A DNA stretch of 37,937 nt from Microcaldota archaeon (GTDB lineage Archaea; Micrarchaeota; Micrarchaeia; Micrarchaeales; CABMGC01): positions 1 to 37,937 of the forward strand of contig JAJZJQ010000014.1 in NCBI GenBank assembly GCA_021851065.1, in the 5' to 3' direction. Positions within the stretch are counted from its first letter, which is position 1. The number at the start of each line of letters is the position of its first letter. Both the position numbers and the translations under genes were made by a program. The notes under the pieces were generated by a model that saw nothing but the letters and a program-made list of their open reading frames with translations, was not told the DNA's origin and searched no databases. Shown in pieces: positions 9,975-31,797 of the stretch.

Positions 9975-10565
9975 TTAAACCTTGCTGCCACGTCCCTCGT
10001 GCGAAAGATGCGCAAGTTCGTTCATGACTCCCTCAAGCTGTATGCGTGCGGAGTCCTGCTTGCGCCTGAAATCAGGGAGAATGGATCCAGAAAAGCGCAT
10101 ATGCAGCGTGGAATCATATATATCCGCCATTATATCGTAATAAGACCTTGCATTATCGTATCTGCCTTTCCTTATCGACTCTATGGCCTCCCGTTTAAGC
10201 TCTCCAACCACATCCATGAGGCCTAGCAGGTACGGCACCTCGGTCTCACCGATCTCAGCCATCCTTGGCATCTTCATTCCTGCCAGTATCCCGTGCAGCA
10301 CCATGGCCTCTGTATATTCCTGGTGCGCCTGCAGCGAGTAGTACTCGAAACCTTTCTGGGCATCAGAAAGAGCATTTTTCATTTTTTTGAGATCCAAAAG
10401 CATGGCGTCAGCGCTGCGCGGTCCCTTGGCGTGCATAAGCGCAATGGCCTTGCCTGCGGTTCTTATGAGCTCCCGCGACAGTTGCATCACCCTGTCCCTG
10501 CTGGATTCGAGATCTGCAACCTTCTCCTCTATCTTCCTAAGGTCTGCAAGCATCTTATCAGCCAA
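9975..10565 (-). CDS. Translin-family protein
   Basis: 196 residues, all-helical. Translins form ring-shaped oligomers that bind and in some cases cut single-stranded nucleic acids. Family marks are the N-terminal helix with ESSRDRVMQLSRELIR, the central GYYSL/HQEYTEAMVLHGIL region, EVPYLLGLMDVVGELKREAIESIRKG, and the C-terminal YYDIMADIYDS segment with LPDFRRKQDSARI. Catalytic acidic residues of the Trax type are not clearly seen, so a plain binding translin is more likely. The start overlaps the end of the glycosylase gene by 8 bases (10558-10565), indicating translational coupling. Confidence 0.85.
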   Translation of the reverse strand: MADKMLADLRKIEEKVADLESSRDRVMQLSRELIRTAGKAIALMHAKGPRSADAMLLDLKKMKNALSDAQKGFEYYSLQAHQEYTEAMVLHGILAGMKMPRMAEIGETEVPYLLGLMDVVGELKREAIESIRKGRYDNARSYYDIMADIYDSTLHMRFSGSILPDFRRKQDSARIQLEGVMNELAHLSHEGRGSKV

Positions 10566-11403
10566 TGCTATTCATTCTCCCGAAGTGGTATATATACTGC
10601 TGCGCATATCCCTGCCATCCTGGCCATGTCAAGTCTGCAAATTCATGTATCCTTGCAACGCTCTTCTTCCTGCCCTTGAAGTATACCTGCTCAATTGTGC
10701 GCTTTATCCAAACGTCTATCGGAAAAGCCTCCATCTTGCCATATCCGAAAAGCAGTATGCAGTCTGCAACCTTGTCGCCTACGCCGTCAAGCTCCATAAG
10801 GGCATCCTTAGCGCCATCGTATCCCATGCTGTAAAGCCTTTCAGGCTCAAAGCTGTATGCGAACTGCTCTGCAGCGTTTTTTATGTACTTATCCCTAAAA
10901 CCGGTGCCGCATGCCCGTATACTGCCCAGATCTGCCGCGGCTATTGCCTCAGGCCCTGGAAAGAGCCTTGTGCCTCCAAATTCCTCCCCGAACTGGCCCA
11001 TAAGCCTTCCAATTATGCCTCTTATCCTCTTTATGTTGTTGAACTGAGAGATTACGAAACAAAGCGCAGTCTCCCATGGGTCATTGGCAGTAACGCGCAT
11101 GCCCCTGCATCTGCCTATTGCGTCCAACATGAACTTATCTGTTCCTATGGCTGCATACGCCTTATCCATGTTGGTTTCGATTCCAAGCCTGCGCACAACT
11201 TCCTTGCCTGCGCTTGCCTTCGTGTAATTCCCCTCAAAAAAGTAGCGCAATCCAGTGCCGCTAAACCTGACGTCGATCCTGCCCTTTTGGGTCGTGTAAA
11301 CCAGCTTCTCGATCCCATTGCCCGCAGAGTATCTGGAATGAAAAGTAAGCGGCTGCCCGCTTTCCACGGTGTGCCTAAGGCTGAAATCAGCAACTCGCAG
11401 CAT
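10558..11403 (-). CDS. ogg: 8-oxoguanine DNA glycosylase, OGG1 type
   Basis: Bifunctional glycosylase/AP lyase that removes oxidised guanine. 281 residues from the ATG at 11403 (a TTG two codons earlier extends the frame). Seen: SQFNNIKRI, matching the substrate-contact region of OGG1; the helix-hairpin-helix LDGVGDKVAD with the catalytic Lys (about 211); and FPIDVWIKR with the active-site Asp (about 230). The N-terminal domain (about 1-95) is the OGG-type beta fold. The start shares a palindromic TATA box with the divergent glycosyltransferase. It is coupled to translin downstream; an oxidative-damage role fits the sodN gene elsewhere in the window. Confidence 0.92.
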   Translation of the reverse strand: MLRVADFSLRHTVESGQPLTFHSRYSAGNGIEKLVYTTQKGRIDVRFSGTGLRYFFEGNYTKASAGKEVVRRLGIETNMDKAYAAIGTDKFMLDAIGRCRGMRVTANDPWETALCFVISQFNNIKRIRGIIGRLMGQFGEEFGGTRLFPGPEAIAAADLGSIRACGTGFRDKYIKNAAEQFAYSFEPERLYSMGYDGAKDALMELDGVGDKVADCILLFGYGKMEAFPIDVWIKRTIEQVYFKGRKKSVARIHEFADLTWPGWQGYAQQYIYHFGRMNSIG

Positions 11404-11437
11404 AAGCAAATCCTCAAAGCACTACTCTACTTCAAAC

Positions 11438-11445
11438 TTTATAAA
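11438..11445. promoter_or_regulatory. Palindromic TATA box between ogg and the glycan locus
   Basis: TTTATAAA is self-complementary, 35 bases from the ogg ATG and 33 from the TTG of the GT2 gene, so it may serve both directions. Confidence 0.45.
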
Positions 11446-11477
11446 CATCCATCTACGATAACTATCCGGGTCATACA

Positions 11478-12536
11478 TTGGCAAAGAGGCTCTCGGTGCT
11501 CATATTCTCAAGGGACGACGCCGCAAAGGCCATTGCGCTGGCAAAAGACATATACGAAATAGCAGACGAAATTGTCCTTATAGATTCGAGCATGAAAACA
11601 ATCCACAGCAAGCTGGTATCTGCGAAAGCCAGGATGGGTCTTGCGAAACTCAGGATATATTATGCCATACCGCTAGGCTACCCTGACCCGCTTCGCATGT
11701 GGGCGCTTAAGAAATGCACAAACGGCTGGGTTATGCTTCTTGACACTGACGAGAGGCTTAGCCCAGCCCTCAAATCCGACCTTCATAAGATCATAAACAA
11801 AGCAGGATCCCAGGCGCTGTCCATAAGGCGGTACGAGGAAGTCGGCAGGGGATTTCGCGGGTCGTTCACCAACTGGCAGACAAGGCTATTCAAGAAAGGC
11901 AGTGTTACTTTCAAAGGCATAATACACGAAGAGCCTGCGATTAACGGCCATATAGAGAAAATAACGGGCAGCGAATACTACATAGACCATGTTGCCGAGC
12001 TGCGGGGCAATGCCGCATTCGGATACTCCAACATGGAGAAATTCCTGCGGATGTCGTACAAGGATTACAACCTAAGGCTGATAGACTATTTCTATAAAGT
12101 TACAGTACCGGACAGGCAGGACCGCGCAGGTGCAGGAGGCGCAAGCCTAAAGACGCTGCTTACCCTATACGAGAAGCTGGGGCTAAAGCACGCAGGGGAA
12201 GAGGCGAGCCATTTTGACTATTTCATGTTCTATTACCTCATGGCAGTTGCAATGTACCTGAAGAAGCGCAGGATAAGCGGCGTATTCAGTGGTCTTGTTG
12301 ATGCAGGCAAGGCTCTTGCAAAGGTCAAGGCATGGCAGAGGGAAGAAGACGCCACTGAAAGTTTTGAAATATCGAAGATACTGTACAAAGAAGGCCTTAT
12401 AAAGTTCCTTGAGCTTGACAAGGATAGCACGATAAAGTGGCTCAACAAAAGATACTCTGCACAGAGGGGCGGAATAGGCCTTTTAATCGGGCTTCTGAAG
12501 CTCAGGTACGAGAGGGGAAAGAGATGGATGGAGTGA
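11478..12536 (+). CDS. Glycosyltransferase family 2
   Basis: 352 residues with a TTG start just after the shared TATA box. The GT-A fold is shown by the opening LSVLIFSRDD, the IVLIDSS strand and the nucleotide-sugar/metal motif LLDTDER (about 89-95), with FTNWQTRLFKKGSVTFKGIIHEEP afterwards, a phrase found in WaaE/KdtX-like transferases. The C-terminal third (from about 200) is helical and of unknown role. First gene of the glycan locus; acceptor and donor are not readable from the sequence. The following GT4 gene starts 25 bases after its stop. Confidence 0.82.
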   Translation: MAKRLSVLIFSRDDAAKAIALAKDIYEIADEIVLIDSSMKTIHSKLVSAKARMGLAKLRIYYAIPLGYPDPLRMWALKKCTNGWVMLLDTDERLSPALKSDLHKIINKAGSQALSIRRYEEVGRGFRGSFTNWQTRLFKKGSVTFKGIIHEEPAINGHIEKITGSEYYIDHVAELRGNAAFGYSNMEKFLRMSYKDYNLRLIDYFYKVTVPDRQDRAGAGGASLKTLLTLYEKLGLKHAGEEASHFDYFMFYYLMAVAMYLKKRRISGVFSGLVDAGKALAKVKAWQREEDATESFEISKILYKEGLIKFLELDKDSTIKWLNKRYSAQRGGIGLLIGLLKLRYERGKRWME

Positions 12537-14386: not shown

Positions 14387-14953
14387 ATGGACAAGCAGCA
14401 GGTCGGGAACTACATCGCCGAAGGGGTTAGGATACGTAAGCTAGTTAACGTGGATGAGATCTATGAGATAGGGCTTGAGATGGCGCAGCGCATGATAAAT
14501 GGCAGGGGCACCTTGCTGATATTCGGCAACGGGGGAAGCGCAGCAGACGCGCAGCACATAGCAGCCGAATTCTCCGGCATGTGCGAGAGGAAAGACCGCG
14601 GACCGCTATCTGCAGTTGCTCTTACAACCAATACCTCATCGCTTACGGCTCTCTCAAACGATTTTGGATATGACGAGGTATTTGCAAGGCAGATGCGCGG
14701 AACAGCCGCAGAGAAGGACGTAGTTATAGGCATATCCACAAGCGGCAACGCCATGAGCGTGATCAAGGGCATGGAAGAGGCCAATAAGATAGGATGCTTC
14801 ACAATAGCGCTTACTGGAAAGACTGCCGGAAATTTGCGCGGCAAGGCGGATAGGATAATAAGGGTTGACAGCACAAGCACACCATTGATACAGGAAGTGC
14901 ACATAACAATAGGGCACATCCTCTCGAAGATAGTGGAGGATCTGATAGAATAA
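14387..14953 (+). CDS. gmhA: Sedoheptulose-7-phosphate isomerase GmhA
   Basis: First step of heptose nucleotide synthesis: sedoheptulose 7-phosphate to D-glycero-D-manno-heptose 7-phosphate. 188 residues, one SIS domain. The phosphate loop GNGGSAADAQH (47-57) and E61 in AAEF, and the later STSGNAMSV, are followed by IQEVHITIGHIL with the catalytic His, as in GmhA of Gram-negative bacteria. This pattern separates it from other SIS isomerases. It is the first of a pair with hddA (10-base gap). A 98-base AT-rich gap with TATATATA-like runs separates it from the acyltransferase. Confidence 0.9.
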   Translation: MDKQQVGNYIAEGVRIRKLVNVDEIYEIGLEMAQRMINGRGTLLIFGNGGSAADAQHIAAEFSGMCERKDRGPLSAVALTTNTSSLTALSNDFGYDEVFARQMRGTAAEKDVVIGISTSGNAMSVIKGMEEANKIGCFTIALTGKTAGNLRGKADRIIRVDSTSTPLIQEVHITIGHILSKIVEDLIE

Positions 14954-14963
14954 TGTTGATTTT

Positions 14964-15980
14964 ATGGCAGGGGAAAACAGGGTTGTCATTACAAGGACAC
15001 CTTTTAGGATAAGTTTTGCAGGAGGAGGCACTGACATACCCGAATACTACAAGAACTACGGCACCGGGGCCGTTGTAAGCGGGGCCATGAACAGGCATGT
15101 GTTCCTTGGCGTACACAAATATTTCTTCGAGAACAGCATAAGGCTGCACTATGCCAAAGTGGAGACCGATGTTACAAACATAAACGAGCTTCATCATCCA
15201 TCTGCCAGGGAGAGCCTAAGGATGCTTGGCATAAGCAAGGGCATAGAGATCTCCACCATAGCAGACATGCCTTCGCATGGGACTGGGATAGGATCAAGCA
15301 GCTCATTTGCCGTGGGGCTGCTCCACGCCCTGCACGTATGGAAGGGAGAAAAAGTCACGCAGAGCCAGCTTGCCGAGGAAGCCATACACATAGAGCGCGA
15401 GGTGCTAAAGGAAGCTGGAGGCAGGCAGGACCAGTATGTTGCAGCTTACGGCGGTCTTCTGCTAATGGAATTCTTCAAGGATGACACGGCAAAGGCAAGG
15501 CGCATAGAGATAAATCAAAAAGACTTCAGGGAGCTTGAACGCCACCTGTTGTTCATGTATACCGGAAAGGAGCGCAGCTCAAGCGCTATACACGCAAAGC
15601 AGGCATCTGCTGCGCCGGATCACATGGATTCCTACAAGAAAATGGCGCAGCTGGCATACGATCAGTGCGAAGCCCTGGAAAATGGGAAATGGCAGGAAAC
15701 AGGGAGACTACTGCATGAGAACTGGATGCTCAAGAAGACCCTGGCAGGGGGCATAAGCGACCCTTATCTTGACAGAATATACGATACCGCAAGGAAGAAC
15801 GGGGCCCAAGGGGGCAAAATCATGGGAGCCGGGGGCGGCGGATTCTTCCTGTTCTTCGCAGAGCCTGAAAAACACCAGCAGATAATAGACTCTGTTCCCG
15901 AGCTAAAGCACGAACCTGTAGGCATTGATCCCGAAGGGAGCAAAGTGATCTATAGCCAGGGTAATCCTGCAAGCCTATAG
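14964..15980 (+). CDS. hddA: D-glycero-D-manno-heptose 7-phosphate kinase HddA
   Basis: Second step: phosphorylation to heptose 1,7-bisphosphate. 338 residues, like bacterial HddA (about 340). GHMP kinase features in order: ITRTPFRISFAGGGTD at the start, the ATP loop MPSHGTGIGSSSSF (about 94-107), GGRQDQYVAAYGG, and the C-terminal MGAGGGGFFLF. The GRQDQY phrase and the companion gmhA favour heptose over mevalonate or galactose. Its stop overlaps the convergent gmhB stop by 6 bases (15975-15980). Confidence 0.88.
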   Translation: MAGENRVVITRTPFRISFAGGGTDIPEYYKNYGTGAVVSGAMNRHVFLGVHKYFFENSIRLHYAKVETDVTNINELHHPSARESLRMLGISKGIEISTIADMPSHGTGIGSSSSFAVGLLHALHVWKGEKVTQSQLAEEAIHIEREVLKEAGGRQDQYVAAYGGLLLMEFFKDDTAKARRIEINQKDFRELERHLLFMYTGKERSSSAIHAKQASAAPDHMDSYKKMAQLAYDQCEALENGKWQETGRLLHENWMLKKTLAGGISDPYLDRIYDTARKNGAQGGKIMGAGGGGFFLFFAEPEKHQQIIDSVPELKHEPVGIDPEGSKVIYSQGNPASL

Positions 15981-16643
15981 CCTGCATTCCTCTCGCTTGG
16001 CTATGCTATCTACGGCAGAATAAAGGCTTCTTGCTTCAATGTCCTGGGATATCTTACGATTGCCTACTATCATGTACGTCCTTTCCTCTGACTGTTCTCC
16101 ATACCTCCAATTCAGAAATACAGTGACGATCCTATCCCTCGATATCCCCAGTGGCTTTAGGGTTTCATGATAATAATTCTCCAGCGCCTCAAGATCAGTG
16201 AACTTGTCACCTACAATATACACTTTGAGTGACCTTGGGTTAAGTCTGAAATGGCCAACTACCTGTTCCACGAGCCCTGCCTTTGGTTTCCTGCAACTGC
16301 ATCTGTCTTCAACTGTATGCGGGCATACCTTTACCGTAAAATCAGACCTTCTGATTCCTGCAGCAATCGCCTCATCAATCACCTTCTTGTTTACCCTGGC
16401 CAACTCGGCAACAGATAGAAGCCCTCTCGAAACATCCGGCTGGTTAGTGATTATGCCTACTCTGACCCCCATCTTTCCAAGTTTCTGCATTGCCCTATGC
16501 AGTCCAGGCACAGGTTTAAAATTCGCAAGGCCGTGCATGCCAGCCGGCATGTTCTTGCACAGTACCCCGTCTCTGTCCAGCAGAACCAGAACTTCAGCAT
16601 CACCGGGCGCACTTTCATTCCCGGAGTTTCCATAATGCCTCAT
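15975..16643 (-). CDS. gmhB: D,D-heptose 1,7-bisphosphate phosphatase GmhB
   Basis: Third step: removal of the 7-phosphate to give heptose 1-phosphate. From the ATG at 16643 it has about 222 residues; the longer frame (to 16706) runs past a TATA box at leaderless distance and overlaps the next gene. HAD motifs: LLDRDGV with D23 and D25, ITNQPDVSRG, and the later GDKFTD. The zinc loop CPH...CSCRKP (C-x-H and C-x-C) is diagnostic for GmhB. It is encoded opposite to the rest of the pathway and ends into hddA. Confidence 0.88.
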   Translation of the reverse strand: MRHYGNSGNESAPGDAEVLVLLDRDGVLCKNMPAGMHGLANFKPVPGLHRAMQKLGKMGVRVGIITNQPDVSRGLLSVAELARVNKKVIDEAIAAGIRRSDFTVKVCPHTVEDRCSCRKPKAGLVEQVVGHFRLNPRSLKVYIVGDKFTDLEALENYYHETLKPLGISRDRIVTVFLNWRYGEQSEERTYMIVGNRKISQDIEARSLYSAVDSIAKREECRL

Positions 16644-16656
16644 ATAATCAATAATG

Positions 16657-16682
16657 TTATTAAGACTAGATAGGTAATAAAT
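16657..16682. promoter_or_regulatory. Divergent promoter between gmhB and the SDR gene
   Basis: GGTAATAAAT at 16673-16682 reads ATTTATTACC on the minus strand, about 30 bases before the gmhB ATG. TTATTAAG at 16657-16664 is a weaker plus-strand candidate for the SDR gene at 16697. Confidence 0.35.
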
Positions 16683-16696
16683 CCCTAGGCGTATGC

Positions 16697-17689
16697 ATGA
16701 CAACACTTAGCGGCAAGAACATAATAGTTACAGGTGGTGCAGGATTCATCGGTAGCACGCTGGTAGACCGGCTGTGCACCAACAACAAGATACTGGTTGT
16801 AGACAATATGCACACGGGCTCAATAGGGAACCTCTCCAAGGCAATGAAATCCGGCAATGTGACCCTGAAAAGGTCATCATCTGCAGATATCTCAAAACCA
16901 AGGTTCGATGCCGATATTGTATACCATCTGGGCATGTACTCATCGACCCCTATGTACAAGAAAGACCCCAGGCTTCTGGGCAAAGTCGCAAGCGACATGA
17001 TAAATGTACTGGAATACGTACGCGAGCATCGTGTGCCACTTGTATTTGCATCAACCTCGTCAATATACAACGGCGTGAAGCCTCCTCACAGAGAGGATGC
17101 GCAGTACAAGGTTACCGACTACTACACCGAGGGGCGCATATTTGCAGAGCGTGCATCAGAGCTCTATGGCTTGCTTTACGACTCCGATATAGCTGCCATG
17201 AGGTTCTTTTCCGTGTACGGTCCAAAGGAGAGGGCCAAGCGGGAGTACGCAAACCTTATCTCCCAGTTCATGTGGCTAATGGAGAAGGGCCACAGGCCTG
17301 TGATATATGGCGACGGCACTCAGAAGCGCGATTTCATACACGTAGATGATGTGGTTGAGGCCTTGGTGAGAGCTCATGCCGTAAAGGGCTTTAAGGTATA
17401 CAATGTGGGCACAGGCAGCAGCCATACTGTCAATAGCATGGTTGGGGTGCTAAACGAGAAACTCGGCACCGCCATAAAGCCAAAATACATAAAGATGCCC
17501 ATAAGCAATTACGTGCGCGAGACGCTGGCTGACACATCCAAGGCAAAAAGAGAGCTTGGGTTCAGTGCACGGATACCACTGGACAAGGGGATATCGATGC
17601 TTACAGGCAGCAAGAGCGCAGGTCGAAGACAGGGCGATCCAAATTCCCATACACTTCTCAAAAGAACTACAAAGCCGATAATAACATGA
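16697..17689 (+). CDS. Extended-SDR NAD-dependent sugar epimerase/dehydratase
   Basis: 330 residues. The nucleotide motif TGGAGFIG is near the start and the SDR body continues with VYHLGMYSS, FASTSSIYNG, RFFSVYGP and DFIHVDDV, as in UDP-glucose 4-epimerase-type enzymes. Oddly, the usual Y-x-x-x-K catalytic pair reads Y143-T-E-G-R147 (YYTEGRIFAE), with Arg in place of Lys. The other key residue, Ser in the STSS segment, is present. The stop overlaps the start of the FkbM gene (ATGA). Substrate unknown; activity could be altered. The last 30 residues are basic and not SDR-like. Confidence 0.8.
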   Translation: MTTLSGKNIIVTGGAGFIGSTLVDRLCTNNKILVVDNMHTGSIGNLSKAMKSGNVTLKRSSSADISKPRFDADIVYHLGMYSSTPMYKKDPRLLGKVASDMINVLEYVREHRVPLVFASTSSIYNGVKPPHREDAQYKVTDYYTEGRIFAERASELYGLLYDSDIAAMRFFSVYGPKERAKREYANLISQFMWLMEKGHRPVIYGDGTQKRDFIHVDDVVEALVRAHAVKGFKVYNVGTGSSHTVNSMVGVLNEKLGTAIKPKYIKMPISNYVRETLADTSKAKRELGFSARIPLDKGISMLTGSKSAGRRQGDPNSHTLLKRTTKPIIT

Positions 17690-18480
17690 CAACTTCGCAC
17701 GATAACTCGAGTAAAAGGAAGCTCTACAGGTATGCTTACAAAATAGGCAGCATGACTGGCATAGGCCGCTTCACATTAGTTAAGAAGATACGCAAGATGC
17801 TTCTAGGCGGTAACAATGAAGCCGCATACTTTCCAGACCTGAATTGTTTCATGTATAGTGACGAGTTTGATACTGGCGATATTCATGTGGGCACACCATA
17901 TGAGCCAGCAGTAATGCGTACTCTCAAATCCATAATCAAACCAAATGACATCTGCCTCGATCTTGGCGCGAATGTGGGGATATACGCGGTACTCTTCGGC
18001 TTACACACCGCACATACTTATGCATTCGAGCCTGCATCAAGGACCTATGCAGTCCTCCAGCACAATATACAGCTCAACAACCTCGAATCAAAGGTGACAG
18101 CGAATTGTGCTGCCGTATCTAACAGTTCCAAGAAATTGAACCTGAATATAAGTTATTACAGTTCAGCGAGCAGCAGCTTTGTTCAGGAGGCAGAAGGAAC
18201 TGAGACTGTAGATTGTGTAAGACTTGATGACTATTTCAAGGGAAAGAAGTATCCCACCGTGATAAAAATGGACGTCGAGGGTTGGGAGAGCGAAGCCATC
18301 GAAGGGGGGCGTCAGGTATTCGCATCAGCCTCTCACATCATCTTCGAGAATAACGAGAAGCTCCTGAAGAAGAGAGGCCGCTCGTTCACCACAGTCCCAG
18401 GAGAATTTGCTTCAATGGGATTCGAGATAGAGGCCATAGACAGTCTCAACATGCACGCTTATAAGAAAAAGGAGGGATAA
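17686..18480 (+). CDS. FkbM-family methyltransferase
   Basis: 264 residues. SAM-binding motif CLDLGANVGIYA (90-101), then the acidic-loop FEP, and VIKMDVEGWESEAIEGG, the late FkbM signature. The family mainly O-methylates sugars or polyketides; in a glycan locus, methylation of a sugar hydroxyl is likely. The N-terminal 70 residues, with YRYAYKIGSMTGIG, are outside the core. It is coupled to the upstream SDR and followed directly by a small membrane peptide. Confidence 0.85.
   Translation: MTTSHDNSSKRKLYRYAYKIGSMTGIGRFTLVKKIRKMLLGGNNEAAYFPDLNCFMYSDEFDTGDIHVGTPYEPAVMRTLKSIIKPNDICLDLGANVGIYAVLFGLHTAHTYAFEPASRTYAVLQHNIQLNNLESKVTANCAAVSNSSKKLNLNISYYSSASSSFVQEAEGTETVDCVRLDDYFKGKKYPTVIKMDVEGWESEAIEGGRQVFASASHIIFENNEKLLKKRGRSFTTVPGEFASMGFEIEAIDSLNMHAYKKKEG
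18471..18476 (+). promoter_or_regulatory. Strong Shine-Dalgarno before the 42-residue peptide
   Basis: GGAGGG lies 5 bases before the ATG at 18482, at ideal spacing, within the end of the fkbM gene. It supports translation of the small frame. Confidence 0.55.
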
Positions 18481-18481
18481 G

Positions 18482-18610
18482 ATGGACAAGGCTAGATTAT
18501 GGCATTTTATAGCTGCATTTTTATTCTTCTCGATAGCTTATGCCTGCTTCATCACCATCCAAATCGACTTCTTGGCATGCTATTCATTGCCAGACGCTAT
18601 AAGGGGGTAG
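18482..18610 (+). CDS. Small single-pass membrane peptide (42 aa)
   Basis: 42 codons, too short to be found by ordinary cut-offs. The ATG follows a GGAGGG Shine-Dalgarno, and the TAG is followed after one base by the ATG of the nucleotidyltransferase. The sequence starts MDKARLWHF and has a hydrophobic run IAAFLFFSIAYACFITIQIDFL (about 10-31), consistent with one membrane helix, then two Cys. I do not recognise it. Tight spacing on both sides suggests a real operon member, perhaps a membrane anchor or regulator of the glycan machinery. Confidence 0.55.
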   Translation: MDKARLWHFIAAFLFFSIAYACFITIQIDFLACYSLPDAIRG

Positions 18611-18611
18611 C

Positions 18612-19298
18612 ATGAAAGCCCTGATACTTGCAGGCGGGATGGGAAAGAGACTACGCCCTCTGACCAACAGCATTCCAAAACCCATGGTCAAAGTAGGCGG
18701 CAAGCCAATAATATTCTGGCAGATACGGTGGCTAATGGCAAATGGCATAGACCGATTCGTGCTTCTTGGGGGATACCGTGCAAGCAAACTCGTTTCGTAC
18801 ATAAAGTCAATGGGCATGTCCGGCAGCTTCGAGTTCTCAATAGAAGACAGGCAGCTAGGCAGCGCAGGCGCCATATCAAACGCACGCAAATTTGTTGAGC
18901 ACGAGAAGGAGTTCCTTATAGTTAACGGCGACAATATCACCGACCTGAATATTGCAAGGCTCAGGCTAAATGGGAGGGAGCTCGCATGCCTTGCAGTTGT
19001 ACCGTATCGCAGCAGCAAGAGCCTTGTGTCAATAAAGAATCGCAGGATAATCGGATTCGAGGACAGGCCCTTTATTGGCGGATACTGGTATAACGCAGGC
19101 GTGCTGCTTATGGGCTCTAAAGCACTCAAGTCTCTTCCAGGATCCGGAAGGCTTGAGGAAGACGTATTTCCAAAACTTGCCAGCGGCGGAAGGCTCTCAT
19201 GCGCAAAATTCACCGGATCCTATTTCAATTCCATAGACTCGATAAAGGACGCCGAGGAAGTTGACAAGGATATCAGGTCGGGGAAAGTAAGACTGTGA
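18612..19298 (+). CDS. hddC: Sugar-1-phosphate nucleotidyltransferase, probable heptose guanylyltransferase HddC
   Basis: 228 residues, like bacterial HddC (about 230). The start LILAGGMGKRLRPLT is the pyrophosphorylase signature, KPMVKVGGKPI holds the sugar-phosphate Lys, and VNGDNITD holds the metal Asp. Short nucleotidyltransferases of this kind also activate glucose or mannose, so the donor (GTP) and sugar (heptose 1-phosphate) are inferred from gmhA, hddA and gmhB nearby. If right, it completes GDP-D-glycero-alpha-D-manno-heptose synthesis. Confidence 0.72.
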   Translation: MKALILAGGMGKRLRPLTNSIPKPMVKVGGKPIIFWQIRWLMANGIDRFVLLGGYRASKLVSYIKSMGMSGSFEFSIEDRQLGSAGAISNARKFVEHEKEFLIVNGDNITDLNIARLRLNGRELACLAVVPYRSSKSLVSIKNRRIIGFEDRPFIGGYWYNAGVLLMGSKALKSLPGSGRLEEDVFPKLASGGRLSCAKFTGSYFNSIDSIKDAEEVDKDIRSGKVRL

Positions 19299-19447: not shown

Positions 19448-20443
19448 ATGAAGGCCGAATTCGGAGAAACTGAGGAGGCACAGCTTGCCAAGCTCGGAAA
19501 GGGCACCAGCGTCCTCATAACAGGGGGCTCAGGCTATCTTGGATCTATACTGACAGAGATGCTGATAGAGCGCGGTTTTAGCGTTACTGTTGTGGACAAC
19601 CTATCCTACGCACAAAATACACTATTCAACCTCTTCTCGAATGACAGATTGCACTTCGTATACGGCGATGTCACAAACGAGAAATTCATGCAGAAGGTTA
19701 TGGATGGCAGCAAGTACGACTTCATAATCCCTCTTGCTGCGATAGTGGGATTCCCTGTGTCGGAGCAAAAACCCGAGGTGACATGGCTGATAAACTACAA
19801 TTCAATTCTGACCCTGCTAAAAAGCAGGAAGCCTGGGCAGAGGATGATATTCCCTACTACAAACAGCGGATATGGCACAACAGACGGCAAGACTGAATGT
19901 ACAGAAGACAGCCCCCTGACTCCCATCTCAACCTACGGAAAGAGCAAGGTGGCTGCAGAGAAGGCCATACTCGAAGCCGGGGATTCCGTATGTTTTAGGC
20001 TTGCCACTCTGTTTGGCTTCTCTCCAAGGATGCGCACGGATCTGCTCGTCAACAACTTCGTTAACAAGGCTGTCAGCGACAAGACTATAGTGCTGTTCGA
20101 GAGGACCTTCAAGAGAAATTTCCTTCACGTAAGGGATGCTGCGCGAGCCTTCCTATGGACGATGCTAAACTGGGAGAGGATGAACGGCAAGACATACAAT
20201 GTCGGCCATCCGGACTACAACATCACCAAGGAAGAGCTATGCAATATGATAAAAGAGAAAGTTCCCGATCTCAACATCTTCTATTCGGAGATTGGCCAGG
20301 ATCCTGACAAGCGCAACTATGTCGTTTCCAACGCGCGCATACTAGCAACAGGATTCACCTTTAATTACGACCTAAAGGAAGGGATTGCTGAGCTTGCGCG
20401 CGGCTACGAGGCCCTGCGCGATTACAGGTTCAAGAACTACTAG
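19448..20443 (+). CDS. Extended-SDR sugar-nucleotide epimerase/dehydratase
   Basis: 331 residues, with about 18 extra N-terminal residues before VLITGGSGYLGS (22-33). PTTNSGYG (136-143) and the catalytic pair Y163/K167 in TYGKSK are intact, and NFLHVRDAARAFL follows. The substrate group cannot be decided: C4-epimerase and C4-reductase folds look alike, and the TNS segment differs from the T-D/S-E triad of 4,6-dehydratases. It has its own promoter region: AT-rich TTATTATATTC about 40 bases before the start. It is followed 26 bases on by a GT2 gene. Confidence 0.82.
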   Translation: MKAEFGETEEAQLAKLGKGTSVLITGGSGYLGSILTEMLIERGFSVTVVDNLSYAQNTLFNLFSNDRLHFVYGDVTNEKFMQKVMDGSKYDFIIPLAAIVGFPVSEQKPEVTWLINYNSILTLLKSRKPGQRMIFPTTNSGYGTTDGKTECTEDSPLTPISTYGKSKVAAEKAILEAGDSVCFRLATLFGFSPRMRTDLLVNNFVNKAVSDKTIVLFERTFKRNFLHVRDAARAFLWTMLNWERMNGKTYNVGHPDYNITKEELCNMIKEKVPDLNIFYSEIGQDPDKRNYVVSNARILATGFTFNYDLKEGIAELARGYEALRDYRFKNY

Positions 20444-21447: not shown

Positions 21448-21993
21448 ATGGCGCACAAGTTCACTGACATTGGAATGGGGGTTATCCTAATACAGAATGA
21501 CCTATACGAGGACGATAGGGGATTTATGGCCGAATGGTACAATAAAGACATATTCTTCAGTAACGGCATAACAAACAACTTTGTCCAGCATAAGTCTTCC
21601 AGGTCCAAAAAAGGCGTTCTGAGGGGATTCCATTTCCAGCAGCATCCATACGAGCAGGCAAAAATAATACGTTGCCTGTCAGGTGAGATATTCAATGTAG
21701 TTGTGGACGTGCGCAAAGAATCTGCAACTTTCAAGAAACACGTTGAGATAAATCTGAAAGGAGACGGAAAGAGCGCACTATTTCTGCCCAAAGGCTTTGC
21801 AAATGGATTTATCGTAACTAGCAATGAAGATGCAATAATCCTGTATTATATCGATGGGGAATGGGCTCCTGGCAAGGAACGCGGGATTATCTGGGACGAC
21901 CCCGACCTTGCCATCAAATGGCCCATGGTTCCATCAACCATATCAAAAAAGGACGCGCAGCTGCCCAAAATAAATGACATAAAGTGGGAATAA
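21448..21993 (+). CDS. rfbC: RmlC-like NDP-4-keto-sugar 3,5-epimerase
   Basis: 181 residues, cupin fold. H62 in GVLRGFHFQ, K72, Y133 in ILYYIDGEW and D151 in WDDPDLAIKWP match the RmlC active site. One conserved phrase differs: GFAHGF reads GFANGF, so the His (residue 119) is Asn. The substrate in this locus may be a 4-keto heptose or deoxyhexose rather than dTDP-4-keto-rhamnose; no RmlA or RmlB partner is seen, although a 4,6-dehydratase gene lies at 30838. The stop overlaps the start of the RmlD-like gene (TAATG). Confidence 0.85.
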   Translation: MAHKFTDIGMGVILIQNDLYEDDRGFMAEWYNKDIFFSNGITNNFVQHKSSRSKKGVLRGFHFQQHPYEQAKIIRCLSGEIFNVVVDVRKESATFKKHVEINLKGDGKSALFLPKGFANGFIVTSNEDAIILYYIDGEWAPGKERGIIWDDPDLAIKWPMVPSTISKKDAQLPKINDIKWE

Positions 21994-22880
21994 TGGAAAA
22001 GATGCTCATAATAGGTGCCAACGGCCTTCTTGGCTCAAAGGCGTTTGAGATAGGCAGCTCATCGTATAAGGTATACGGCACGTACAGCAAGAACCATTCC
22101 AGAGACCTCACGCAGCTTGATGCTACTGACAAAGCCGCCGTGTCAAAGCTAATCGGCAGGGTAAAACCCGATCTGGTACTCGACACGCACGCCCTAAACA
22201 ACTTGGATTACTGCGAGTCGCACAGGGACCTGGCCTGGGAAATAAACGTTGATGGCTCAAGGAACATAGCACAGGAATGCCAGGCAGTCGGTGCCAAGTA
22301 CATATTTATCTCCTCCGACTACGTCTTCGATGGCAGAAAGCCAATATACACTGAAAACGACAAGCCCAACCCTCTAAACTACTACGGCAAAACAAAATGG
22401 GCTACAGAAGAGGTGCTAAAAGTGCTAGATATAGATATGATAGCCATACGGACCTCGGCAATCTACGGGGCAGTGAGCAGCACAGGAAAACAGAGCTTTG
22501 TACAGTGGCTTATAGAAAGCCTGGGAAAAGGCTCCAGGGTTGATATAATCTCCGATATGTTCAACAGCCCAACATTAAACAGCGATATAGTGTATGCCGC
22601 ATTAAGGCTGTATGGGTCTGACTCAAATGGCATATTCCATGTGGTCGGCGGAGACAACATCTCCAAATACGAATTCGCTATGCACATAAGCGAGGAATTC
22701 GACCTTGACAGCAGCCTAATAAATCCGGTAAAGATGTCACAGCTGTACAAAGACTCAATAAGGCCAAAGAAGATCAACCTGTCCACTGTCAAGCTCAAGA
22801 AACTTACCGGCCAAGTGCCAGTTGGTGTAAACGAAGGACTCAGGCTGCTGCACCACGACATAGATGCACGCAAGGTATAG
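21993..22880 (+). CDS. rfbD: RmlD-like NDP-4-keto-sugar reductase
   Basis: 295 residues from the ATG at 21993, inside the rfbC stop; a GTG at 21984 is rejected. IIGANGLLGS binds NAD(P)H, FISSDYVFDG carries the Ser and Tyr region, and the catalytic pair Y131 and K135 (YYGKTK) is intact. Reduces a 4-keto sugar nucleotide after 3,5-epimerisation, as in deoxy-sugar pathways. It aligns without gaps over residues 1-135 to the gene at 24168, its paralogue. Confidence 0.85.
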   Translation: MEKMLIIGANGLLGSKAFEIGSSSYKVYGTYSKNHSRDLTQLDATDKAAVSKLIGRVKPDLVLDTHALNNLDYCESHRDLAWEINVDGSRNIAQECQAVGAKYIFISSDYVFDGRKPIYTENDKPNPLNYYGKTKWATEEVLKVLDIDMIAIRTSAIYGAVSSTGKQSFVQWLIESLGKGSRVDIISDMFNSPTLNSDIVYAALRLYGSDSNGIFHVVGGDNISKYEFAMHISEEFDLDSSLINPVKMSQLYKDSIRPKKINLSTVKLKKLTGQVPVGVNEGLRLLHHDIDARKV

Positions 22881-24167: not shown

Positions 24168-25058
24168 CTAAAAATATTCGCTGGACGAAAGCATTCCATG
24201 TAGAATCCTTAGCCCTTTCTTCATCCCAACAGGTTTCTCAGTAACGTATTTCCCGAGTTTCCCAGTGCTGAACTTCACCCTCAACGGGCGCCTTACCAGC
24301 TGTTGCAGGTCTGAAAATCCACAGGGTTCTATCAATCCATCATCCAACTCGAATTCCCTGCATACTGCCTTGGCGAAATCATACTTGCTTATGCAATCCT
24401 TCCCGGCTATGTTGAAAATTCCCTTGGCGTTAGCGCTGATAAGTACAAAAACTGACCTCACAAGATCGTCTACAAGTGTGGGTGTCGCATACTGGTCAGT
24501 GGCGGCTTTCACCTTCACTCCTTTGTGCAGATTCTCTATTATAAACTGCGGGAAACCTTTCTTTCCTGTCCTGCTCATTCTTCCATACGTTCCTGAAGTC
24601 CTTGCTATGATGTGGTCTATGTCGAATATATCCATCATTGTCTCTACGGCCCACTTCGTCCTGCCAAGATAATTGACTGGGTCAGGCCGGTCTCTTTCAG
24701 TATACACTGCCTTTGTGCCTGAAAATACGAGGTCAGAGGATATGAATATGTATTTGGCCCCGGATTGCCTGCTGGCATCCATCAAATTCCTAGAACCTTC
24801 AAAATCTATGGCCCACGCATCATCCTTGTGTGACTCTGCGCGTTCAACGCTGTTTATCCCATGCGCATCGAAAACCACATCCGGTCTGATCTTCCCAAAA
24901 AGCCCAAATACCGCGCGCCTGTCCACAACATCAAGCTGCAATAATCCTTCTTTCTTGTTTTTAGCATATGTGCCGTATGTCTCATACTTCTGAAGGCCCA
25001 ACTCGAATGCCTTGGCTCCTATGAGCCCGGTGGCACCTATTACAAGCAATCTATCCAT
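24168..25058 (-). CDS. RmlD-like paralogue without the catalytic Tyr
   Basis: 296 residues, clearly paralogous to the gene at 21993, with IGATGLIG and FISSDLVFSG. The YxxxK catalytic Tyr, at position 131 in the paralogue, is Leu here (NYLGRTK); K135 remains, and the Tyr of the SSDYVF phrase is also Leu. It therefore may not be a normal reductase. RmlD-fold proteins without activity exist (for example the MAT2B regulatory subunit), so a binding or regulatory role, or a shifted reaction, is possible. It is the downstream neighbour of the C-methyltransferase on the same strand (36-base gap). Confidence 0.8.
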   Translation of the reverse strand: MDRLLVIGATGLIGAKAFELGLQKYETYGTYAKNKKEGLLQLDVVDRRAVFGLFGKIRPDVVFDAHGINSVERAESHKDDAWAIDFEGSRNLMDASRQSGAKYIFISSDLVFSGTKAVYTERDRPDPVNYLGRTKWAVETMMDIFDIDHIIARTSGTYGRMSRTGKKGFPQFIIENLHKGVKVKAATDQYATPTLVDDLVRSVFVLISANAKGIFNIAGKDCISKYDFAKAVCREFELDDGLIEPCGFSDLQQLVRRPLRVKFSTGKLGKYVTEKPVGMKKGLRILHGMLSSSEYF

Positions 25059-30799: not shown

Positions 30800-30837
30800 T
30801 TATTAACCTTCATTATACAACATAAGCAGTGATCTTC

Positions 30838-31797
30838 ATGGATAAAGTTCTTGTCACAGGCACTACGGGCTTCATAGGCAACGAGCTTGCACAAAGGCTG
30901 GTAGAGAAAGGGTACGAAGTACATGTACTGGAAAGATACATGACGGGCCGCTACTCTTTCGACCGCGGTGCAAATGTTATAACCCACTATGCAACTCTCA
31001 CCGATTATCCTGCCATAAGAAACATAATAAGGGAGGTCCAGCCTGACTACGTGGCCCATTTGGCTGCAATAAGCCCTGTATCATTCTCCTACGATCACTT
31101 TATAGAAGTAACTGAGGCCAACTACCTGGGCACCATCAACCTTGCCGAGGCATGTTACAGGGAGGTTCCGCATTTCAAGCAGCTGGTAGCGGCCGGAACT
31201 TCGGAAGAGTACGGTATGACGCTCTCGGACAAGGGCCACAAGCTTACTGAGGAGTCGCCCCTGCACCCAAACAGCCCGTATGCCGTCTCAAAGGTGGCGT
31301 GCGATCTCTATTTGCGCTACATGCATGAAGCGTATAACTTCCCATCCACCCTGCTGCGCGCTTTCAATACCTATGGCAGAAAGCACAACTCGCACTTCTT
31401 CGTAGAAAGGACCATAACACAGATGCTCAAAGGAGGAAAGGTATACCTGGGGGACAAGAGCACTGTCAGGGACTGGATATATGTGGATGACCATGTCGAC
31501 CTGTACGTAAAGGCTCTTGGGAATCCAAAGGCTGTGGGGCAGGTGATACAGGGATGCAGCGGGAAGGGCTACACTACAGAGGAGACTGCAGAAATCATAG
31601 CAAAACTCACCGGCTTCAAAGGCGATATTGTGTGGAACGCGACCCCGAAAAGGCCGCTTGACGCGCGCATACTTATAGGCGACAATTCCAAGGCGAAAAA
31701 ACTGCTTGGATGGGAGCCCAGATACACGCTTGAGGAGGGTCTTAAGAAGACCATAGACTACTGGAAGAAGGCCAAGACTGCACATGCGCAAAGCTGA
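30838..31797 (+). CDS. NDP-sugar 4,6-dehydratase (GDP-mannose dehydratase-like)
   Basis: 319 residues from the ATG at 30838 (a GTG at 30829 is in frame). VTGTTGFIGN binds NAD. The triad Thr121-Ser122-Glu123 (GTSEEYG) plus Y148 and K152 (YAVSK) is the 4,6-dehydratase signature, in the T-S-E form of GDP-mannose dehydratases, not the T-D-E of RmlB. It should remove the 6-hydroxyl of an NDP-sugar and leave a 4-keto group. Given the GDP-heptose genes, GDP-heptose is a candidate substrate, as for WcbK/DmhA-type enzymes, but GDP-mannose is equally possible. DWIYVDDHVD is the NDP-side region. Confidence 0.85.
   Translation: MDKVLVTGTTGFIGNELAQRLVEKGYEVHVLERYMTGRYSFDRGANVITHYATLTDYPAIRNIIREVQPDYVAHLAAISPVSFSYDHFIEVTEANYLGTINLAEACYREVPHFKQLVAAGTSEEYGMTLSDKGHKLTEESPLHPNSPYAVSKVACDLYLRYMHEAYNFPSTLLRAFNTYGRKHNSHFFVERTITQMLKGGKVYLGDKSTVRDWIYVDDHVDLYVKALGNPKAVGQVIQGCSGKGYTTEETAEIIAKLTGFKGDIVWNATPKRPLDARILIGDNSKAKKLLGWEPRYTLEEGLKKTIDYWKKAKTAHAQS

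Follow-up and report, generated by a model that had tools for sequence, protein, structure and literature searches.

The stretch analysed here, the window, comprises 37,937 nucleotides of contig JAJZJQ010000014.1 from a Microcaldota archaeon and encodes two RmlD-like proteins, P0001 and P0002, on opposite strands with a sugar C-methyltransferase gene between them. Its features, numbered from the first base of the window, are listed below; numbers beginning with G denote genomes.

14387 to 16706: GmhA and HddA (both forward strand) and a GmhB-type phosphatase (reverse strand), GDP-heptose precursor genes, the GmhB label being based on the ORF sequence and a match to relatives rather than on a family search
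16697 to 17689, forward strand: P0007, heptose-epimerase-like SDR, a conserved cluster neighbour, motif YTEGR
18612 to 19298, forward strand: HddC-like nucleotidyltransferase; best NCBIfam match HddC at 94.6 bits, below the curated cut-off of 300
19448 to 20443, forward strand: P0006, epimerase/dehydratase-type SDR related to the cassette SDR of G052, G246, G177 and G009
21448 to 21993, forward strand: RmlC-like 3,5-epimerase, overlapping the start of P0002; TIGR01221 at 185.5 bits, above the cut-off of 155.75
21993 to 22880, forward strand: P0002, Tyr-type RmlD-like paralogue, 295 residues
22908 to 24131, reverse strand: P0003, sugar C-methyltransferase (PF08421/PF13489/PF08484), 36 bases downstream of the P0001 gene and on the same strand
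24168 to 25058, reverse strand: P0001, extended SDR of RmlD-like type, Leu replacing the catalytic Tyr, 296 residues
24654 to 24656, reverse strand: codon 135 of P0001, the Lys of the YxxxK motif, retained
24666 to 24668, reverse strand: codon 131 of P0001, CTT (Leu); Tyr in 28 of 28 aligned Tyr-type relatives
24729 to 24731, reverse strand: codon 110 of P0001, CTC (Leu), two residues after Ser108; Tyr in both Leu131 orthologues
24732 to 24740, reverse strand: Ser107-Ser108-Asp109 of P0001, the active-site Ser/Asp, retained; by analogy with PglF and MAT2B a proposed stand-in proton relay
25017 to 25037, reverse strand: GxxGxxG dinucleotide-binding motif of P0001, G8 to G14, intact

P0001 and P0002 are 46-47% identical (137 identities over 296 residues, 71 of them within residues 1-135), and the gapless alignment that the preliminary description had claimed for residues 1-135 was borne out and extends to about residue 293. 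The motif of P0001 reads N-Y130-L131-G-R-T-K135 and that of P0002 N-Y130-Y131-G-K-T-K135, with TAC at codon 131; alignment and codons both confirmed the earlier reading of Leu131 against Tyr131 with Lys135 retained. With respect to the Ser/Thr-Tyr-Lys triad, P0001 thus carries the Ser and the Lys with Leu131 in place of the Tyr, and the initial picture of an RmlD-fold paralogue which lacks the general-acid Tyr of SDRs and adjoins a C-methyltransferase gene is supported. Residue 110 is likewise Leu in P0001 and Tyr in P0002.

P0001 was matched by the RmlD domain model PF04321 with 156.3 bits (E 1.1e-45, cut-off 27) but reached only 146.3 bits against the RmlD equivalog TIGR01214 (cut-off 224.05), and P0002 also fell below that cut-off with 203.2 bits. 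The GDP-L-fucose synthase model NF047922 was absent among the model matches of P0001, the best of which were RmlD models. Nor is P0001 of the MxxxK type, since Leu rather than Met stands at the Tyr position and the TDK motif of those SDRs is replaced by S-S-D-L/Y in the Leu-type proteins. AlphaFold2 models of both paralogues were of high confidence (mean pLDDT 94.2 for P0001) and had equal secondary structure near the site, with a helix starting at residue 130. When the P0001 model was searched with Foldseek, the closest solved folds were RmlD and MAT2B, with TM about 0.83-0.94 to the nearest solved RmlD and human MAT2B among the top structural matches. Tyr was kept in all five RmlD/MAT2B alignments examined from the PDB search.

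Distribution and ancestry of the Leu131 form

The window genome encodes eIF-6, which among 14 control genomes was detected in the four archaea only, and the host is accordingly archaeal. A survey of 301 genomes of one phylum yielded 31 proteins that were aligned. Leu131 was found in three of these, from the window, G052 and G246, and Tyr in the other 28. P0001 is 56-58% identical to the Leu131 proteins of G052 and G246, two genomes of one genus which belongs to the same order as the window genome but to a different family; the Leu131 sample is therefore three sequences from one phylum, two of them from one genus, in draft genomes (G246 60% complete, the window genome 87.5%). Since a change from Tyr to Leu requires two base changes, and since Leu131 is encoded by CTT and CTC in the independently assembled genomes G052 and G246, the residue is no sequencing slip, and its presence in two other genomes rules out both sequencing error and private decay. 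To judge from these sequences, Leu131 looks like a real, maintained variant rather than an error or the mark of a decaying gene. No relatives of P0001 were found in viral contigs, a single-sequence scan of genome contigs returned only bacterial proteins (22-25% identical), and no report of a Leu-type RmlD was found in the open-access literature.

Two further residues had been singled out at the outset. The reading of SSDYVF as SSDLVF in P0001 is real (CTC at codon 110) but is confined to the window: the other two Leu131 proteins keep Tyr110, and SSDLVF is unsupported as part of the Leu131 change. Taken alone Leu110 says little, because 7 of the 28 relatives with Tyr131 also have a residue other than Tyr at 110. 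Tyr130, named as a residue that might take over the catalytic role, is no new gain, as it is present in 19 of these 28 proteins; a newly acquired stand-in at this position is unsupported.

In a tree built without the trait columns 110, 113, 126, 131 and 172, the three Leu proteins formed one clade (support 98/93), while P0002 grouped with G177. Forcing the two window paralogues together was rejected (AU p 0.019). Recent duplication of the adjacent gene is ruled out by the tree and this test, and P0001, which had been presented as a duplicated reductase, is no fresh copy of its neighbor but an old sister lineage shared with another archaeal family. The substitution appears to have arisen once before the window and G052/G246 copies separated, or to have moved by transfer, and then to have been kept.

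Of the 20 columns that do not vary among the 28 Tyr-type proteins, three are changed in every Leu protein (C74 to A/G, D113 to S and Y131 to L), compared with 0-2 in held-out Tyr proteins, and the window protein alone has an additional N85D. Solved bacterial RmlD alignments have Ala at 74 and Gln at 113, so that Tyr131 is the one Leu-clade change at a broadly conserved site. GxxGxxG, Ser107, Asp109 and Lys135 are retained across the clade. From the common node the P0001 branch measures 0.64, as against about 0.25-0.38 for G052/G246. Between the Leu proteins of G052 and G246 dN was 0.15 with dS saturated, similar to the adjoining RmlC and SDR. P0001 is conserved between the window and G052 to a degree (56% identity) comparable to HddA (52%), GmhA (54%) and the P0007-like SDR (58%), which indicates that P0001 is about as constrained as the cluster enzymes.

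Gene neighbourhoods

The genes surrounding the RmlD-like proteins fall into two settings. In the dTDP-rhamnose setting, Tyr-type genes (G034, G049, G223, G247, G016, G008 and G038) adjoin RmlB-like and mostly RmlA-like genes, and RmlB was found above cut-off in G034, G174, G182 and G223. In the heptose-type setting (G009, G177, G052, G246 and the window), RmlC is followed by an RmlD-like gene with an epimerase-type SDR close by. RmlB above cut-off was absent from the four of these that were tested, namely the window, G177, G052 and G246: the best TIGR01181 match in the window genome (G000) scored 159.8 against a cut-off of 365.1, and no match reached E 1e-40 in G052 or G246 (genomes tested 60-92% complete). 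The RmlD-like proteins of all five heptose-type genomes form one clade (95/93), the long G009 branch included. The settings of the window, G009, G052 and G246 come with GmhA, HddA and a P0007-like SDR, indicative of GDP-heptose precursor synthesis; in G177 only a distant HddA match was found.

No RmlD match other than the Leu protein was found in G052 or G246 (G246 being 60% complete). The gene of the Leu protein lies directly after RmlC there, with overlapping ORFs, and is followed by another SDR in an RmlC-RmlD-SDR cassette, with the HddA/GmhA heptose genes 9-15 kb away and no C-methyltransferase gene adjoining it; other Tyr-bearing SDRs lie near the heptose genes of G052. In the window, GmhA, HddA, the HddC-like gene and RmlC are all present, but it is the Tyr paralogue P0002 that occupies the RmlC-coupled slot, and the P0001 gene is inverted.

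Several other features of these neighbourhoods were recorded. The genes of GDP-D-glycero-D-manno-heptose type in the window (GmhA, HddA, GmhB and HddC-like, 14387-19298) reside in a small archaeal genome, and a LegB/GMD-like dehydratase lies beyond them at 30829-31797. The SDR after the RmlD-like gene has Asn for the Lys of YxxxK in G052, G246, G177 and G009 (L042:14651-15643, L072:9395-10387, L073:11741-12733 and L049:11247-12233; motifs YTVAN, YTISN, YAKAN and YAKAN); in P0006, the relative in the window, the motif is an ordinary YGKSK. YTEGR, a YxxxR motif, occurs in the P0007-like SDR of four out of four heptose-cluster genomes (window 16697-17689, L043:3916-4836, L092:4081-5055 and L049:7017-7931). 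The RmlC-like protein of the window has Trp at residue 139, the second active-site Tyr position, and G052/G246 have His. Loss of this Tyr together with that of RmlD was perfect in 13 sequences and failed on 30, where Trp, His or Val also occurred in genomes with a Tyr-type RmlD relative. Two long ORFs (10387-11562 and 11478-12536) had no Pfam match.

The best solved relative of P0003 was D-mycarose 3-C-methyltransferase 4rv9 (E 4.6e-69, 236 bits), followed by TcaB9 at 190 bits; 4rv9 is presumably MtmC, which is said to be a bifunctional ketoreductase-methyltransferase. P0003 is closer to the bacterial antibiotic-sugar 3-C-methyltransferases than to the C-methyltransferases adjoining rhamnose genes in G174, G034 and G223, to which it is 27-29% identical and which lack the IYHEH motif that P0003 keeps. 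No relative of P0003 was matched in G052 and only a weak partial one in G246 (E 3e-5, genome 60% complete). The suggested link to C-methylation therefore stands insofar as the gene adjoins P0001 in the window, but a tie to Leu131 itself is unsupported, as neither G052 nor G246, despite having the Leu protein, has a confident P0003 relative; a P0003 partner is probably not what the Leu change evolved for.

Proposed role of the Leu-type protein

By analogy with known systems, we give about even credence to P0001 being an NAD(P)-binding RmlD-like SDR of a GDP-heptose modification lineage, rather than of dTDP-rhamnose synthesis, and acting as a reductase with Tyr-free proton transfer. The canonical Tyr general acid would have been lost a single time, ahead of the split between the window copy and those of G052/G246, and the lineage would have persisted without it. 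In its ancestral role, still carried out in G052/G246, the protein most likely acts after the RmlC-like epimerase and reduces a nucleotide-linked 4-keto-heptose at the C4 ketone; NAD(P)H would supply the hydride and the remaining Ser108/Asp109/Lys135 set the proton, Tyr110 (Ser108+2) standing in wherever it occurs. In the window, a Tyr paralogue would have come to hold the RmlC-coupled slot while P0001 moved beside the C-methyltransferase and lost Tyr110 as well; its most likely activity there would be slow or substrate-assisted reduction of a C-methylated 4-keto sugar, or it would have shifted to binding. Lacking both tyrosines and accompanied by a Tyr paralogue, the window protein may be slow, specialised or non-catalytic. 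Removal of the Tyr abolishes or cripples most SDRs. Counted against a reductase are also the absence from P0001 of Tyr110, the most obvious stand-in, its longer branch, the number of Leu sequences (three) and the Tyr-bearing SDRs near the heptose genes of G052, which could do the reduction instead.

It is somewhat unlikely, if credible, that P0001 is a non-catalytic partner which binds NAD(P)H and/or a nucleotide sugar and serves P0002, RmlC or the C-methyltransferase as a binding or regulatory subunit, in the manner of MAT2B. That the window protein alone has lost both tyrosines, 131 and 110, and has a full Tyr-type paralogue at its side would fit such a role, as would the structural match to MAT2B, which acts as a regulatory subunit (PMC3793261). 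A regulatory or binding subunit, as put forward in the preliminary description, is nevertheless argued against as the original function by G052 and G246, where the sole RmlD match is the Leu protein in the reductase slot; moreover, MAT2B itself retains Ser-Tyr-Lys, and P0001 retains Lys135. In SDRs the Lys of YxxxK mainly serves the cofactor and the Tyr.

Rather improbable is a different chemistry on a 4-keto sugar nucleotide for which the Tyr acid is unneeded (e.g., tautomerisation, ring contraction or a redox-neutral rearrangement), although the earlier suggestion that P0001 does something other than canonical reduction is upheld as a possibility. Coordinated changes at C74, D113 and Y131 and a cassette SDR with Asn replacing Lys are consistent with this, and ring contraction has been proposed for RmlD paralogues in the streptose and DHHS pathways (PMC9095892). 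However, C74 and D113 are unconserved in solved bacterial RmlD, and the Tyr-type G177 shares the gene order, which suggests that it carries out the same step. That the window copy is a relic, a redundant inactive reductase awaiting deletion, is very improbable: the added L110 and N85D substitutions, the longer branch and the Tyr-type paralogue would agree with it, but the 296-residue frame is intact, all other family-invariant residues are retained, the predicted fold is confident, identity to G052 is within the range of the cluster enzymes and Leu131 is conserved elsewhere.

Returning to the Tyr-free reductase, we tentatively advance a wider proposal, which we think possible but on the doubtful side: that an archaeal heptose-pathway lineage of RmlD fold works without the SDR tyrosine, the window protein performing hydride transfer with protonation by Ser-Asp, water or the substrate, or acting as a dedicated partner of the C-methyltransferase. 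We know of no RmlD-family member with such a partner role. Active SDRs are conventionally recognised by the Tyr of YxxxK, and P0001 would be annotated as a rhamnose reductase or written off as inactive. With a conserved Leu form next to a Tyr paralogue, nature itself provides a test of how far SDR catalysis depends on this Tyr. The Leu form also suggests that small archaea have a GDP-heptose branch in which RmlC- and RmlD-like names are misleading.

Comparison with known systems

P0001 shares with RmlD (PF04321) the fold, GxxGxxG, Ser-Asp and Lys, and differs in the replacement of the catalytic Tyr by Leu, a score below the TIGR01214 cut-off, a genome without RmlB above cut-off and a neighbourhood of heptose genes. 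MAT2B, the regulatory subunit of methionine adenosyltransferase, offers an RmlD fold in a non-reductase role, and its Ser-Asp equivalent to Ser108-Asp109 contacts the bound ligand (PMC3793261); unlike P0001 it is eukaryotic and retains Ser136-Tyr159-Lys163.

Active SDRs that lack the Tyr are known from other subfamilies. The polyketide ketoreductase SimC7 (IxxxH) is active with Ile at the Tyr position (PMC5039031) and resembles P0001 in SDR reduction without Tyr and in the retained Ser, but its Lys is replaced too and its substrate-assisted phenolate mechanism is specific to an aromatic substrate. The MxxxK UDP-GlcNAc 4,6-dehydratases WbpM, PglF and CapE are likewise active without Tyr; PglF and WbpM have Met in its place, and PglF transfers the proton via a Thr-Asp pair (PMC8987622) that matches Ser108-Asp109 of P0001. 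These enzymes differ from P0001 in subfamily, in catalysing dehydration and in having Met rather than Leu.

The closest functional precedent is MlghC of Campylobacter jejuni, a GDP-heptose C4-reductase of the MlghC/DdahC kind. The C. jejuni pathway converts GDP-heptose by oxidation or dehydration into a 4-keto intermediate, on which an RmlC-like epimerase and then an SDR acting as C4-reductase work in turn (PMC10680097). MlghC is active with Ser107-Phe136-Lys140, and its Tyr109 points into the active site (PMC7949155, where Table 4 numbers this residue 108). This Tyr, at Ser+2, corresponds to residue 110 of P0001, which is Tyr in G052/G246 and Leu in the window protein, the latter thus differing from MlghC in this respect. 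MlghC and the Leu proteins have in common the RmlC-like epimerase partner, the GDP-heptose pathway and the lack of the catalytic Tyr with Ser and Lys kept; MlghC is, however, of the GDP-fucose-synthase type and has Phe rather than Leu, so that the likeness is functional only.
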